Of a stretch of 22,907 nucleotides of DNA, positions 580 through 22,372 are shown in pieces (within the stretch, counting starts at the first letter, position 1; every line of letters starts with the position of its first letter). The stretch lies in IMG/VR virus record IMGVR_UViG_3300011113_000028, positions 1-22,907 of that record. The stretch is one strand, 5' to 3'. The translations under genes and the position numbers were made by a program. The notes under the pieces are model-generated. The model had not been told where the DNA came from. It did no database searches and saw only the letters and a list, made by a program, of their open reading frames with translations. This DNA is from a virus.

Positions 580-643
580 ATGCCTTTAGGTACTAATAAT
601 GTGACCGTAACGACTGCTGCTACCTTCATTCCTGAAGTTTGGT
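580..643 (+). CDS. Major capsid protein, exon 1 (split gene)
   Basis: ATG at 580 follows a good ribosome site (AGGAG, 569-573). The exon encodes 21 complete codons, MPLGTNNVTVTTAATFIPEV then W, plus the first base (T643) of codon 22. If the RNA is not spliced, the frame reads only two more residues (L, S) and stops at TAA 649-651. Removing 644-1243 joins T643 to CT at 1244-1245 to give a Ser codon and continues in frame as DEIVASYKKALVAANL, a natural continuation of the IPEVW motif. The exon is therefore the 5' end of the capsid gene, not a small separate gene. The last six exon bases (TTTGGT, 638-643) pair with GCCAAA (657-662) to form P1 with the expected U-G pair at the splice site. Confidence 0.92.
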
Positions 644-1243
644 TATCGTAAGACAGGCCAAAGTAAAACCGTTTCTGAATAACTGGAAAGCCAACTAGAA
701 AGGGCTAATCAGAGGGAACACGAAATTACCAATAACGCAATTCACTACAGGAGGTAGTATGAAGCGAGTAAGTTGGAAGTATTTAGCAGGATTGATTGAC
801 GGCGAGGGATGTATAGACCTCGCTACGACAAAAGTAAATGAAGTTTTTTACATACAGCCGCGACTAAGAATTGCAATGGCTGATGTAGCAAAATTCTTAC
901 TTGAACAATGTCAGGCCAACTTCGGTGGACATTTGGAACATCGTGAAAGCAAGAACGAAAAATGGCAAAGCTCTACCGGATGGACACTATCTGGTTACAA
1001 GCAAGCCTGTCCAGTTCTTCGCAATGTTGTCAATCATCTTATCTTGAAGAAAGAACAAGCTCGGTTTTGTCTCTGGATGGAGACTAACTTGAAGGGCACC
1101 CGGCTCCAGCAAGAAGTGTTGGATGCAGTGCGAGATGAGCTTAAGCTAATGAAGCGTGACCCGCACAGACTAAGTGAAACGGCTCAAGAGCATATTCTAA
1201 TGCTTTTGGGAAGCTATAGTCGAAAGGATTGTAATATCCTAAG
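644..1243 (+). ncRNA. Group I self-splicing intron in the major capsid gene
   Basis: This 600-nt intervening sequence is bounded by T643 and a terminal G1243, as group I introns require. Helices seen by eye: P1, exon TTTGGT 638-643 with GCCAAA 657-662; P10, CAG 654-656 with exon-2 CTG 1244-1246; P3, CCGTTTC 669-675 with GAAACGG 1176-1182; tentative P4 (TGA 676-678 / TCA 709-711) and P5 (AGCC 689-692 / GGCT 703-706); P6, GGG 714-716 plus CACG 719-722 with CGTG 1155-1158 plus CCC 1160-1162; P7, GACTA 1168-1172 with TAGTC 1217-1221; P8, 1183-1193 with 1200-1210 (11 pairs, two G-U); P9, AGGAT 1225-1229 with ATCCT 1236-1240. The AAGCTATAGTC stretch near the 3' end resembles the conserved group I P7 3' element. 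The homing endonuclease ORF sits in the P6 loop and runs through the 3' half of the core. Subgroup not assigned. Confidence 0.93.
749..755 (+). promoter_or_regulatory. Strong Shine-Dalgarno of the intron ORF
   Basis: AGGAGGT at 749-755 is a near-complete complement to the 3' end of 16S rRNA and lies 3 nt before the ATG at 759. It shows that the intron ORF has its own initiation site and is not read as part of the capsid gene. Spacing is short, so initiation efficiency is uncertain. Confidence 0.7.
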
Positions 1244-1247
1244 CTGA
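759..1247 (+). CDS. Intron-encoded LAGLIDADG homing endonuclease
   Basis: This 162-residue protein carries one LAGLIDADG motif, YLAGLIDGEGCI, at residues 8-19. The eighth motif position, normally the metal-binding Asp, is Glu16, a common variant. Proteins with one motif act as homodimers that cut long, near-symmetric DNA sites; family members of about this length are typical. It lies in the P6 loop of the group I intron and would promote intron homing into intronless capsid genes, possibly also helping RNA folding (maturase activity is known in the family but cannot be seen here). ATG 759 is supported by AGGAGGT just upstream. Codons from about residue 133 onward are also the 3' P6, P7, P3, P8 and P9 strands. 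The last codon AGC (1242-1244) crosses the splice site and TGA (1245-1247) lies in exon 2, so the full ORF exists only in unspliced RNA or DNA. Confidence 0.92.
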   Translation: MKRVSWKYLAGLIDGEGCIDLATTKVNEVFYIQPRLRIAMADVAKFLLEQCQANFGGHLEHRESKNEKWQSSTGWTLSGYKQACPVLRNVVNHLILKKEQARFCLWMETNLKGTRLQQEVLDAVRDELKLMKRDPHRLSETAQEHILMLLGSYSRKDCNILS

Positions 1248-2103
1248 CGAAATTGTTGCGTCTTACAAGAAAGCCCTCGTTGCCGCTAACCTCATTAAGA
1301 AGATGAACTTCAAGGGCAAGAAGGGTGACACCGTTCATATCCCCGCCCCGACCCGTGGAGATGCTTCTGCCAAGGCTGCTGGTAGCCAAGTGACGTTGAT
1401 TGCTGCTACGGAAGGCGAGAAGACCGTTGCTATCGACCAACACTGGGAATACTCGCGTCTGATCGAAGACATCGTGGAAGCCCAAGCCCTGTCGAGCCTG
1501 CGTCAGTTCTACACGGACGATGCTGGCTACGCTCTGGCTCGTAAGGTTGACAGCACGCTGGTTCAACTGGGCCGTAAGGTTCAAGGTGGTAGCGGTACCG
1601 CTGCTTATAGCGGTGCTTTCTCTGGCGCTGATGGCACCACTGCTTATGTGGCTGGTTCCAACACTGGTCTTGGTGCTCTGACCGATGCGGCTATCCGTCG
1701 TTCGATTCAGCGTCTGGACGACCAGGATGTGCCGATGGATGGTCGTTTCCTGATCGTTCCTCCGTCTACCCGTAACACCCTGATGGGTATTGCTCGTTTC
1801 ACCGAGCAGGCTTTCGTGGGTGAGCAGGGTAACGCCAACACGATCCGCAACGGCGAGATCGGCAATGTGTACGGTATCCCCGTGTTCGTGACCAGCAATG
1901 CTGACACGACCTCTGGTACGACTGCTTGCCGTATCTGCTTGCTGGCTCATAAGGACTTCGCGGTTCTGGTTGAGCAGATGGGCGTGCGTACGCAGACCCA
2001 GTACAAGCAAGAGTATCTGGGTACGCTGTTCACGGCTGATGTGCTGTTCGGCTGCGATGAACTGCGCGATGGCGCTGCTGTTGCTCTGGCTGTTCCGGCC
2101 TAA
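1244..2103 (+). CDS. Major capsid protein, exon 2 (split gene)
   Basis: Exon 2 completes the Ser codon begun in exon 1 and runs in frame to TAA at 2101-2103; the spliced product is 307 residues. It should form the icosahedral shell. Sequence after the junction is DEIVASYKKALVAANLIKKM, followed by a domain containing KKGDTVHIPAP, the E-rich loop-like region around AIDQHWEYSRLIEDIVEA and a C-terminal part with RFTEQAFVGEQG, IPVFVTSN and FAVLVEQMG, a pattern of the HK97-fold coat proteins found in many aquatic podoviruses. Without the intron explanation this frame would have no proper start: the first in-frame ATG (1303) would remove the conserved N-terminal arm. Leu codons are almost all CTG and codon choice looks tuned compared with the TTA-rich genes downstream, consistent with very high expression. 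It is followed by a strong terminator. Confidence 0.9.
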
Positions 2104-14785: not shown

Positions 14786-15274
14786 ATGTTTGAAGTCCTC
14801 GGAGGAGGGCTGCTAGGTAGTATCTTCGGGGGTCTGTTCCGACTGGCTCCCGAAGTACTCAAGTGGCTTGACCGTAAAGATGAGCGTTCCCACGAACTGA
14901 AGATGTTTAGCCTTCAGACTGACCTCGAAAAGATGCGAGGTGAGTACAAGATGGAAGAAAAGTATGTTGACTTCAGCAAGGCAAACATTGATGCAATCGG
15001 TGAGGCATTTAAGCAGCAAGCAGAAGCTGACAAGAAAGCCTACAAGTGGGTTGCAAGCATTTCTGCTTTGGTTCGTCCTGGCATTACTTGGTTGCTGTTT
15101 GGACTGTATACTGCTGTAAAAGTTATTAGCGTGTCTTATGCAGTCAATAGCGGACTCCCAGCTATTCAAATTATGCAAGAGATTTGGACACCAGACGATT
15201 TTGCAATGTTAATGATGGTGTTGACATTCTATTTCCTCGGAAGGCCGTTAGAGAAGCGAGAAGCTAAGGCATGA
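14786..15274 (+). CDS. Putative holin (3TM-type)
   Basis: This 162-residue protein has an N-terminal amphipathic Gly-rich helix (LGGGLLGSIFGGLFRLAP), a charged coiled-coil middle (~25-85, SHELKMFSLQTDLEKMRGEY), then two hydrophobic segments at ~97-119 (VRPGITWLLFGLYTAVKVI) and ~137-153 (FAMLMMVLTFYFLGRP), ending in a charged tail. This layout and the RP-x-x-T-W and FLGRP-type motifs match a family annotated as holins of three membrane segments. Holins open the inner membrane so that the endolysin can reach the wall. The endolysin is two genes downstream. It is preceded by GGAGGAG and ends in an ATGA overlap with the HNH gene. Direct holin activity is inferred. Confidence 0.7.
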   Translation: MFEVLGGGLLGSIFGGLFRLAPEVLKWLDRKDERSHELKMFSLQTDLEKMRGEYKMEEKYVDFSKANIDAIGEAFKQQAEADKKAYKWVASISALVRPGITWLLFGLYTAVKVISVSYAVNSGLPAIQIMQEIWTPDDFAMLMMVLTFYFLGRPLEKREAKA

Positions 15275-15759
15275 AAAAGCTTTACTTTACTGAAGAAGAA
15301 AGGAAACAGGCGAAGTCCGAATGGGATCGCCAGTACCGACTCAGAAAGAAAGAGCAGCTAAAGCAGAAGAAACAGCAGTATTATTTAGACAACAAAGATA
15401 AAATAGCTGAAAAGAGTAAATTGCTGTATCTAGCTAACGCAGAAAAGATTAAACAACGAGTCAAACTCTGGAAGGAAAATAATCGTGAAAAACACAATGC
15501 TAATTGTATGGAAAGACATACAAAGAAAATGCAAGCGTGCCCTTCATGGCTTTCAGAGGATGATAAGTGGTTTATTCAAGAAGCGTACCACATAGCTAAG
15601 CTTCGTTCTGAAGTAACTGGGGTTAAGCACCATGTAGACCATATCGTACCGCTACGATCTAAGCAGGTATGTGGTCTGCATGTTCCTTGGAACCTTCAGG
15701 TTATAACAGCGTCTGAGAACTGTTCTAAACGGAACTCTTTCAATGAATCCCGCAATTGA
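15271..15759 (+). CDS. Free-standing HNH endonuclease inside the lysis cassette
   Basis: The first ~80 of the 162 residues are a Lys/Glu/Gln-rich basic helical arm (KKEQLKQKKQQYYLDNKDK) typical of DNA-gripping modules in phage HNH homing endonucleases. The catalytic HNH fold is C-terminal: VDHIVPL (Asp123, His124), GLHVPWNLQVI (His137, Asn141) and ASENCSKRN (Asn150, Asn155). Such proteins cut DNA and promote spread of their own gene. No splice-site structure surrounds it. It overlaps the upstream holin-like gene by 4 nt (ATGA) and the endolysin by 17 nt, so it is fused into the lysis operon without breaking either neighbour. It may be a mobile insertion that has been accommodated. Confidence 0.88.
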   Translation: MKKLYFTEEERKQAKSEWDRQYRLRKKEQLKQKKQQYYLDNKDKIAEKSKLLYLANAEKIKQRVKLWKENNREKHNANCMERHTKKMQACPSWLSEDDKWFIQEAYHIAKLRSEVTGVKHHVDHIVPLRSKQVCGLHVPWNLQVITASENCSKRNSFNESRN

Positions 15760-16261: not shown

Positions 16262-16435
16262 TTATTCATCGAAAAATTCACCGATCAGGATCATCAGGAA
16301 TGGAATCTTGATGATCAGACCAACGAAACAGACTGTTACCTCTTTACCGTCATCGTCAGCGATACAGTAACGATTAATCTCGTTATGCTCGATGTCTAAG
16401 CCGATACCGAGTCTAGGCTGTATGATCCAACTCAT
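16262..16435 (-). CDS. Small hydrophobic hypothetical protein (57 aa)
   Basis: On the - strand, ATG at 16435 overlaps the reductase stop as ATGA and the frame runs to TAA at 16264-16262. The protein (MSWIIQPRLGIGLDIEHNEI and onward) has a polar N-terminal half and a hydrophobic stretch (VTVCFVGLIIKIPFLMILIG) that is borderline for a membrane helix. It is the last gene before the terminator. The overlap and the absence of other coding in this region support it as real. The function is unknown; it may be a membrane peptide or a small beta protein. Confidence 0.68.
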   Translation of the reverse strand: MSWIIQPRLGIGLDIEHNEINRYCIADDDGKEVTVCFVGLIIKIPFLMILIGEFFDE

Positions 16436-18333
16436 GGGATTTCACAGGCACCAGCAGTGCAGGACAGTGTTTGAACACCTTCTACATTGTCAGTACCTTC
16501 CTTGAATGCTTCCCAGTCGATGCCTACAGGCATTGCAGCCTTCAGGCGTTCATACTCCGCAGCATCAATCGTTTCATACGGTGCTTGCTTATAAGTCCCT
16601 CCGTCCATAGGTAGGAAAGACACGCCTGTAATATCATCAAAGTTCTCCCACACCCAAGCACCGACAGCAGGCCATTCACGCTCCTGGACACTAATGGTCA
16701 CGGAGGGCTTATGCTCACAGTAGTGCTTCTGGTACAACAACCACAACCGAAGATGCTTGATAGCATCCAAGTCCTCACGCAACAAAGCCCCTTCAGCCAC
16801 AGCCACAGGGAAACTGAACACTGTGGTGCTGTCAGGCTTGTAGAAGTCAGGCTCCGAAGGGAATCCCTGAGACTTCAGGAATGCAGTCAGAGGGTCTTTA
16901 TTATCGGATCGAACACGGCGAATATAATAGCGATCATGTTGAGGATGAATACCACTAGCAGTACCCGTGAGTTGAGAAACGGTTCCTTCTGGTTTGATAG
17001 CAGTGATAGCAGTACTCCGGTTGATACCAAGAGCATCAGCAAACTCAGCATTGACAGTAACAGCGTACTCACGAAGTTTCTCCAAGTTAGCAGGCAGTTC
17101 AGGATCATCAGGATTGTTCATCCGAGGATTGTCCAGAATGCCTGTCATTGACACACCCAACAGTCGTTCTTCTTCAGTGTTCGTCTGCCACACCTTCCTC
17201 AAGTACGGGAAGTGCGTAAGAGTTGACTGAAATGTTCCCAAGATAGTTGCAATACGCACTTTACGAGCAAGAGTATCCCAATCATCGCCACTACGGACAA
17301 CGACAGAAGAAAGATTACAGAACTGATAAGGCCGCAGAATAATCTCAGAACAGGGGTTAGTTCCCCATTCCTTGCCCAGTTCCCTACGACCATTCCGAGA
17401 TGCTTGAGTTTCTGAAGCATAACGATTGAAGATACCTCGCTCACCAGAGTGTGATTCATAAATAGACGACCATTCACGCATAAACTGACCAACAGAAGGC
17501 TTGGTATCGTACACAGCACTGTTGTTAGCCAATGCACGCTGACCATTACCATCCCACCAGTTACCTGCCTTAGCATGAGCCATACGATCATCGCTAAGGT
17601 CAGACAGGCTGATCATTGCAGAACGGCGTACCCCGCCCACAACCACGACTTCTCCAATCTTGCAAAGAATGTCGTGTGCCTCAAGGCTAGTGAGTTTACG
17701 CCCAGCAGCACCCTTGAACTTTGCAACTGCGTACTTAAAGAGATCGTTAAGGGGCTCAGGCCCACTAGCACGACCCCCGAAGGTCTTGAGCCGTGCGCCT
17801 GCAGGACGAACCGCTGACACATCCCACTTAGGAATCTCACCTGCATATAGCAGGGCGATAACCTGTCGGAGTGCCTTTGCCCAGCCTTCCTTGGAGTCAC
17901 GCACAACAACAACAGTCTTAGACTCAAACAGACTATCAGGTACTTCAGGAAGTTTATTGACATACTTTTGCTCCACACTAAATCCTACGCCTGTACCGCA
18001 CAGCAGAATGTACATGGCTTCATCGAAGGCTTTAGGATCATCAATGGGCAGATACGAGCAGTTGTAACCTGCTACATTCTGTCGCTCCAGGGCATCACCA
18101 GAAGTCATCAGGGCACGCATGGAAGGCATTACCTCCAGTCGTTCCACCGCACCTTGCAGTTCTTCCCGCAGTTCTGCACCCATCGTGAAGTTGTGCTTGT
18201 CCTTTAGGTGCTTCTGCATGAAGTCAAAGTAGCGGTTGACTGTCTCAGGCCAATGCTCTCGGCGTCCTTTATCATCCAAGAACCGGGAGTACCGAGACTT
18301 AGCGATATAGGTTTGATAGGGGCTCATTTGCAT
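16432..18333 (-). CDS. nrdJ: Class II (adenosylcobalamin-dependent) ribonucleotide reductase
   Basis: This 633-residue enzyme reduces ribonucleotides (by similarity, triphosphates) to deoxyribonucleotides with a cobalamin-derived radical. It resembles the monomeric RTPR type. The active-site residues align with family spacing: Cys92 (YNCSYLPI), Asn326-Pro-Cys328-Ser-Glu330 (thiyl radical Cys and catalytic Asn and Glu), Cys339 (FCNLSS, 11 residues after Cys328, as in RTPR Cys408-Cys419) and the C-terminal shuttle pair Cys625 and Cys630 (SCTAGACEIP). It is somewhat shorter than bacterial RTPR. No small subunit is needed; function requires host cobalamin. It provides dNTPs for replication with ThyX. 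ATG 18333 overlaps the preceding 51-aa gene stop (TAATG), and AAAGGAA is upstream. Confidence 0.93.
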   Translation of the reverse strand: MQMSPYQTYIAKSRYSRFLDDKGRREHWPETVNRYFDFMQKHLKDKHNFTMGAELREELQGAVERLEVMPSMRALMTSGDALERQNVAGYNCSYLPIDDPKAFDEAMYILLCGTGVGFSVEQKYVNKLPEVPDSLFESKTVVVVRDSKEGWAKALRQVIALLYAGEIPKWDVSAVRPAGARLKTFGGRASGPEPLNDLFKYAVAKFKGAAGRKLTSLEAHDILCKIGEVVVVGGVRRSAMISLSDLSDDRMAHAKAGNWWDGNGQRALANNSAVYDTKPSVGQFMREWSSIYESHSGERGIFNRYASETQASRNGRRELGKEWGTNPCSEIILRPYQFCNLSSVVVRSGDDWDTLARKVRIATILGTFQSTLTHFPYLRKVWQTNTEEERLLGVSMTGILDNPRMNNPDDPELPANLEKLREYAVTVNAEFADALGINRSTAITAIKPEGTVSQLTGTASGIHPQHDRYYIRRVRSDNKDPLTAFLKSQGFPSEPDFYKPDSTTVFSFPVAVAEGALLREDLDAIKHLRLWLLYQKHYCEHKPSVTISVQEREWPAVGAWVWENFDDITGVSFLPMDGGTYKQAPYETIDAAEYERLKAAMPVGIDWEAFKEGTDNVEGVQTLSCTAGACEIP

Positions 18334-22287: not shown

Positions 22288-22372
22288 TGGTGCGCTAGGA
22301 GGGACTCGAACCCTCACGCCTTGTGGCAGGGGATTTTAAGTCCCCTATGTCTACCTATTTCATCACCAGCGC
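22288..22372 (-). tRNA. tRNA-Leu (anticodon UAA)
   Basis: The RNA reads GCGCTGG (22372-22366) pairing with CTAGCGC (22298-22292) as acceptor stem. The anticodon stem GGGGA/TCCCC holds the loop CTTAAAA (22340-22334), giving anticodon UAA at 22338-22336. A long variable arm (GCC...GGC) shows a type II tRNA, as expected for Leu. The T arm is GAGGG/CCCTC with loop TTCGAGT. CCA is encoded (22290-22288). It decodes TTA (and TTG) codons. Many structural genes in this phage use TTA heavily. Confidence 0.95.

Follow-up and report, generated by a model that had tools for sequence, protein, structure and literature searches.

Here, we propose that positions 644-1243 of the window (the whole stretch of 22,907 bp that was analysed, a single metagenomic contig whose completeness is not established) are, with high probability on the sequence evidence, a mobile group I intron that interrupts the major capsid gene of an uncultured podovirus. 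What is new is the family to which this intron belongs, together with the way its members occupy four insertion points inside 10 bp and carry a guide sequence to match each. We found no paper on this family in the open-access literature searched.

The capsid frame opens with an ATG at 580 and runs for 23 codons before meeting TAA (649-651). Joining T643 to C1244 gives a single 307-aa frame, MPLGTNNVTVTTAATFIPEVW^SDEIVASYKK... (a caret marks a junction here and below), in which the residues spanning the exon junction are PEVW^SDEIVASYK and the joined-exon 30-mer is CCTGAAGTTTGGT^CTGACGAAATTGTTGCG. Among the joins that keep the frame open, the excision of 644-1243 places a U before the intron and a G last in it, and the resulting protein carries the residues of intact relatives. 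The downstream part of the interrupted gene matches phrog_267 (major head protein, 9e-45) in PHROGs and PF19821 (Phage_capsid_2, 4.4e-09) in Pfam. The best relative in IMG/VR (L001) is uninterrupted and 98% identical across 307/307 residues. The junction is read straight through in 79 of the 80 capsid relatives kept from IMG/VR (at most 98% identical), the remaining one beginning at a contig edge, and the uninterrupted relatives show FIPE[VI]WSDE or near variants there. Together, the exact junction and these empty sites indicate that the insertion is real, exactly 600 nt long, and missing from close relatives. The first-pass annotation had placed the stop at 649-651, the resumed frame at 1244, and a 307-residue product after removal of 644-1243, and these coordinates are exact when judged by the joined frame and the 79 relatives. 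Its identification of a major capsid gene is likewise supported by the Pfam and PHROG matches and the empty sites.

Table 1. Coordinates of the capsid gene, its intron, and the elements within the intron (positions of the window)
Feature	Position	Strand	Remark
Capsid exon 1	580-643	+	Ends ...PEVW plus T of Ser; from joined frame and uninterrupted relatives
P1	638-662	+	Exon 638-643 UUUGGU with guide 657-662 GCCAAA; the two change in step among relatives
Group I intron (proposed), 600 nt	644-1243	+	U643 precedes; omega-G1243 last
P10	654-656	+	CAG with 3' exon 1244-1246 CUG
P3, 5' strand	669-675	+	With 1176-1182; all 7 pairs formed in 30 sequences (100%), double-sided changes in 4
P4 and P5	683-712	+	P4 683-686/709-712, P5 689-692/703-706; 96.2% paired, double-sided changes in 4 pairs
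P6/P6a, 5' strands	714-722	+	714-716/1160-1162 and 719-722/1155-1158; 100% paired, 5/7 pairs with double-sided changes
Hairpin ACUAC-AGGAG-GUAGU	744-758	+	Ends at endonuclease ATG; ribosome-binding site in loop
Single-motif LAGLIDADG homing endonuclease gene (predicted), 162 aa	759-1247	+	Through P6', P7, P3', P8, and P9
P7, 5' strand, guanosine-binding site (predicted)	1166-1172	+	C1166, bulged A1167, G1168-A1172; 100% paired
P3, 3' strand	1176-1182	+	From covariation alignment
P8	1185-1208	+	1185-1193/1200-1208; 95.3% paired over 6 pairs counted
P7, 3' strand	1217-1222	+	From covariation alignment
P9	1225-1240	+	1225-1229/1236-1240; 97.9% paired, 5/5 pairs with double-sided changes
Capsid exon 2	1244-2103	+	phrog_267 major head protein; PF19821 Phage_capsid_2

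With the window's pairings P1-P10 placed by hand, the RNA takes on the predicted anatomy of a group I ribozyme (Table 1). In P1, the 5' splice site lies at a U643.G657 wobble and the capsid's in-frame stop falls within the loop. Across relatives, the exon ends AUCCCU, AUUCCU, ACGCCU, UUGCCU, AUACCU, and UUUGGU each meet their complement with U.G last, the exon/guide pairs including ATCCCT/GGGGAT, ATTCCT/GGGAAT, ACGCCT/GGGCGT, TTGCCT/GGGCAA, and TTTGGT/GCCAAA. Wherever the ends of a relative can be read, the U.G is present, save in L121, which has an N in the guide. The script used for P1 demanded an exon/guide match, yet it found that match at the protein-defined junction in each readable locus but L121. 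P10 is reversed in L083 (CUG with CAG); with its compensations it comprises 2-4 bp, and by itself is modest, supportive evidence. The guanosine site of P7 has the architecture C1166-G1222, bulged A1167, and G1168-C1221, its pairs being invariant or compensated in 30 introns (L121 carries a compensatory G-C), and only 3 nt separate P7 from P3', so that there is no P7.1/P7.2 as in IA. Omega-G is G1243, as set by the capsid frame and relatives, and the endonuclease gene begins inside the P6/P6a loop. Inteins too carry LAGLIDADG domains, and for this reason we weighed an intein, along with a group II intron or some other self-splicing element. The U and G ends, P1-P10, and P7 are instead group I features, and the sole credible Rfam intron match in a relative is to RF00028; these alternatives are thus extremely improbable, and the intein is rejected outright by the in-frame stops within the insertion.

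The group I reading draws further support from covariation. In an alignment of 30 introns covering 39 pairs (P3-P9), which was partly guided by conserved coding sequence, P3-P9 are paired in 98.3% of cells, compared with 84.5% in shuffled alignments and 36-42% with slid partners. Double-sided changes occur in 22 of the 39 pairs and in 155 cells (45 in shuffles), and the covariation score of 0.372 (against 0.117) was reached in 0/500 shuffles. P3, for example, changes from CCGUUUC/GAAACGG to CUUUCUC/GAGAAAG, CCUGUUC/GAACAGG, and CCGAUUC/GAAUCGG, and to UGGAAUC/GAUUCCA in distant members; the P4 and P7 pairs hardly vary and so contribute little covariation evidence. Thus, the pairings P1, P10, P3, P6, P7, P8, and P9 claimed in the first-pass annotation hold, with P3-P9 covarying in 30 relatives, and P4, P5, and P6a can be added to them.

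The Rfam Intron_gpI model (RF00028), by which the intron was to be checked, gave no match on the whole window, 560-1320, or 1120-1270, even at E<=10, because P6 is enlarged by about 430 nt of endonuclease-coding sequence. An endonuclease-free relative does match. This relative (L217:4553-4853, minus strand), found by the shared core motif, is a short group I intron that shares the core, lacks the endonuclease gene, and lies in a different gene context. It matches RF00028 at 4e-07, below the gathering score, and it matches R1, a covariance model built from ORF-less family members, at 9.6e-14 over all 205 positions, which ties the family to the known group I model. Two family-model matches within the window are not independent evidence, since the window was in the training set. 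That the window itself has no direct match speaks against the group I reading, and the ORF within P6 accounts for this objection but does not lift it. A rival reading is that the capsid gene was simply broken by an endonuclease insertion or a frameshift, its protein starting internally at ATG 1303. A 266-aa ATG-started frame does lie there, and the window has no direct Rfam match; against this, the exact junction restores an N-terminus conserved in 79 relatives, RNA pairs covary in 30 introns, and exon and guide change together. We therefore reject an internal start, which we regard as very improbable.

The ORF within the proposed intron bears LAGLIDGEG and matches Pfam LAGLIDADG_1 (PF00961) at 9.8e-07, with 30.1 bits against a cut-off of 23.1. 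An AlphaFold2 model made with 22 homologues has a pLDDT of 89, and the best PDB folds found for it by Foldseek are I-CvuI/I-CreI (E 4e-09, TM about 0.6). The motif acid, E16, is invariant in 22 endonuclease sequences, and the C-terminal 10 residues are predicted to be disordered. These results support the first-pass reading of a LAGLIDADG homing endonuclease, with a predicted fold of I-CreI type. One LAGLIDADG motif per chain implies a homodimer in this family. A pseudo-palindrome search for the enzyme's target scored 6-7/11 at offsets of -3, -1, and +3 relative to site A (defined below), but the background also reaches 7, so the search does not single out a target. In PHROGs, the LAGLIDADG family of this enzyme (phrog_5046) is labelled "HNH endonuclease", a label repeated in many phage records. 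In 4 relatives (L179, L182, L186, and L194), the 3' part of the endonuclease ORF is a cysteine-rich, zinc-finger-like tail before P7'.

How might the endonuclease be expressed? The 3' splice site falls inside its last codon (1242-1244) and exon 2 supplies its TGA (1245-1247), which confines the complete gene to unspliced RNA. The hairpin before its ATG varies in sequence and keeps its pairing in many members: 26 of 43 distinct relatives form a stem of 4 bp or more without a mismatch, where shuffled sequences give a mean of 8.4 and a maximum of 18. In phage T4, hairpins that limit translation of I-TevI protect splicing (PMC2988022), and with this precedent the same trade-off between translation and splicing is likely for the 744-758 hairpin.

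Is the intron mobile? In 31 loci, the endonuclease and capsid trees have only 5 of 28 splits in common, and of 465 pairwise comparisons, 437 show greater similarity for the endonuclease than for the capsid. The window and L094 have capsids that are 67% identical, yet their introns agree at every one of the first 82 bases, and L102 and L105 have site-A introns despite capsids 83% identical to the window's. Compared with the empty allele L001, the window has 5 mismatches in the 13 nt round the junction (639, 643, 644, 648, and 651 in exon-joined coordinates), 0 in the 207 nt upstream of that cluster, and the next at 696, so that in this one pair of contigs the exon flanks appear to have been copied with the intron (co-conversion). 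Disagreeing trees and apparently co-converted flanks argue that the element homes, and on these alignments it has spread laterally.

Some group I introns encode LAGLIDADG proteins that serve as maturases. The ORF could accordingly be a maturase that aids splicing, or could also be one, with homing secondary or lost, and its strong conservation and overlap with the ribozyme core would suit that role. The invariance of E16, the disagreement between the trees, and the spread between divergent capsids speak instead for a homing enzyme, and the L217 core appears complete without any ORF; we thus consider a maturase unlikely. A homing group I intron remains our preferred reading.

The intron is one of many. 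An endonuclease search of IMG/VR gave 43 loci, and a profile search gave 106 relatives, of which 80 were kept. A capsid homologue lies directly downstream in 41 of the first 43 loci (the other 2 are cut by contig ends) and in 31 of 39 further loci examined, the rest having the same FIP^E-x-W junction type as far as readable. About 80 related insertions examined in IMG/VR sit at the same conserved capsid codons, FIP-E-[IV]-W-S. The intron core pattern recovers at least 119 stretches from many metagenomes, and most of those inspected share the arrangement. The family is common, not rare, in uncultured podoviruses. No match was found with the endonuclease profile in GTDB genome contigs or with the intron by BLASTN in 50,697 phage records. 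As the window is a single contig, an assembly chimera or sequencing artefact might be suspected, but the same core and mostly the same arrangement in these independent contigs refute it, and we assign it practically no probability.

Most family introns lie at site A (IP^E[IV]W). The window and L081-L096 use site B (+10 nt, TGG U^C), L121 uses site C (+6), and L164 uses site D (+7). Introns at B, C, and D are nested among those at A in the endonuclease tree, which suggests at least 3 shifts of the insertion point. Support for the site-B clade in that tree is low (0.155), so that site-B monophyly rests more on the shared intron ends than on the tree. We lean slightly towards a single capsid-specialised intron lineage that spans capsids about 21-25% identical and has moved its insertion point at least 3 times within 10 bp (A P^E, C +6, D +7, B +10), rematching its guide to the new exon end each time and keeping its endonuclease family. 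The capsid gene of L164 (2375-3900) contains two group I introns with an apparent 3-nt exon (GGT) between them: the first, at T^GG, has the usual endonuclease, and the second, at TGGT^, has a two-motif LAGLIDADG gene that was not found in any other contig. The site-B introns might have taken their ends from another site-B family seen in L164, but the two-motif endonuclease of that family occurs in this one contig only. In L231 (8240-9735) and L191 (2375-3100), a second related intron begins shortly downstream in the same capsid gene.

What, then, might the intron do in an infected cell? In the transcript, the exon end UUUGGU would pair with the intron's guide sequence to form P1, and a guanosine bound in P7 would attack after U643. 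The freed exon 1, held beside exon 2 by P1 and P10, would then attack after G1243; we infer that splicing joins the exons in this way and so restores the 307-aa capsid protein. On unspliced RNA, capsid translation would halt at the P1-loop stop, which would keep ribosomes off the ribozyme core (of 44 distinct introns, 43 have an in-frame stop within 12 nt past the 5' splice site). The endonuclease would be translated on that RNA from its own ribosome-binding site in the hairpin loop, which presumably controls its yield, and, since the gene's stop codon is in exon 2, its translation would compete with ribozyme folding. At the FIPE[IV]WS codons, the enzyme, a putative LAGLIDADG homodimer of I-CreI type, may cut any capsid allele that lacks the intron in a co-infecting phage, and repair would then copy the intron and some flanking exon into the cut allele.

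Our findings offer a compact intron family with dozens of natural variants and empty alleles alongside, in an essential and highly expressed capsid gene, where few cases of group I introns were known. The family forms a natural series in which to study how the guide of a homing intron and its insertion site change in step. It also lets one ask how splicing keeps pace with the demand for capsid, and how endonucleases directed against rivals' capsid genes serve phages in competition. In practical terms, many environmental podovirus capsid genes will be mis-annotated as truncated, since Rfam misses the introns and the endonuclease is listed as HNH in PHROGs. Elsewhere in the window, a free-standing ORF at 15271-15759 adjoins a lysozyme-like gene, has an HNH-like C-terminus by eye (HHVDHIVPL...NLQVI), and is possibly another homing endonuclease. 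The minus strand carries a ribonucleotide reductase (16432-18333), which matches the B12-dependent (class II) insertion domain PF21995, and a tRNA-Leu (TAA) gene (22288-22372).

The first-pass annotation had called a LAGLIDADG intron in a capsid gene unusual, which is only partly right: the family is common in uncultured podoviruses, and two precedents lead us to reject the rarity of the arrangement. The first is LittleE, a mycobacteriophage of cluster J, in which splicing of a group I intron in the major capsid gene was shown by RT-PCR and protein sequencing (PMC3706429). As in the window, this intron has a U before it, a G at its end, and an I-CreI-related LAGLIDADG gene, but that gene is antisense and the insertion, of about 819 bp, is in the capsid gene of an HK97-type siphovirus (PMC3706429). 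The second is found in Delta and Zeta crAss-like phages, where group I introns likewise interrupt the major capsid (MCP) genes, sometimes several per gene (PMC7886860). These phages belong to another order, and the portion of that paper drawn on here describes no common site or single intron family (PMC7886860). Jug phages are also rich in group I introns, and their splicing has been seen in metatranscriptomes (PMC12363816).

For the endonuclease, the T4 td intron and I-TevI similarly place the gene inside a phage group I intron with its ribosome-binding site in an RNA hairpin, and translation and splicing interfere in this system and its relatives, which differ from the window in having GIY-YIG or HNH enzymes and in residing in nucleotide-metabolism genes (PMC2988022). 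LAGLIDADG genes of Gordonia, Mycobacterium, and cyano-phages (free-standing or methylase-inserted) belong to the same superfamily at no more than 44% identity; unlike the window's, none is inside a capsid gene where its position is visible, that of Cyanophage PP, for instance, lying between terminase and portal. I-CreI and I-CvuI, the best structural matches, share the single-motif, probably homodimeric LAGLIDADG fold with the window's enzyme, but they are only about 20% identical to it and come from chloroplast group I introns, not from phage capsid genes.
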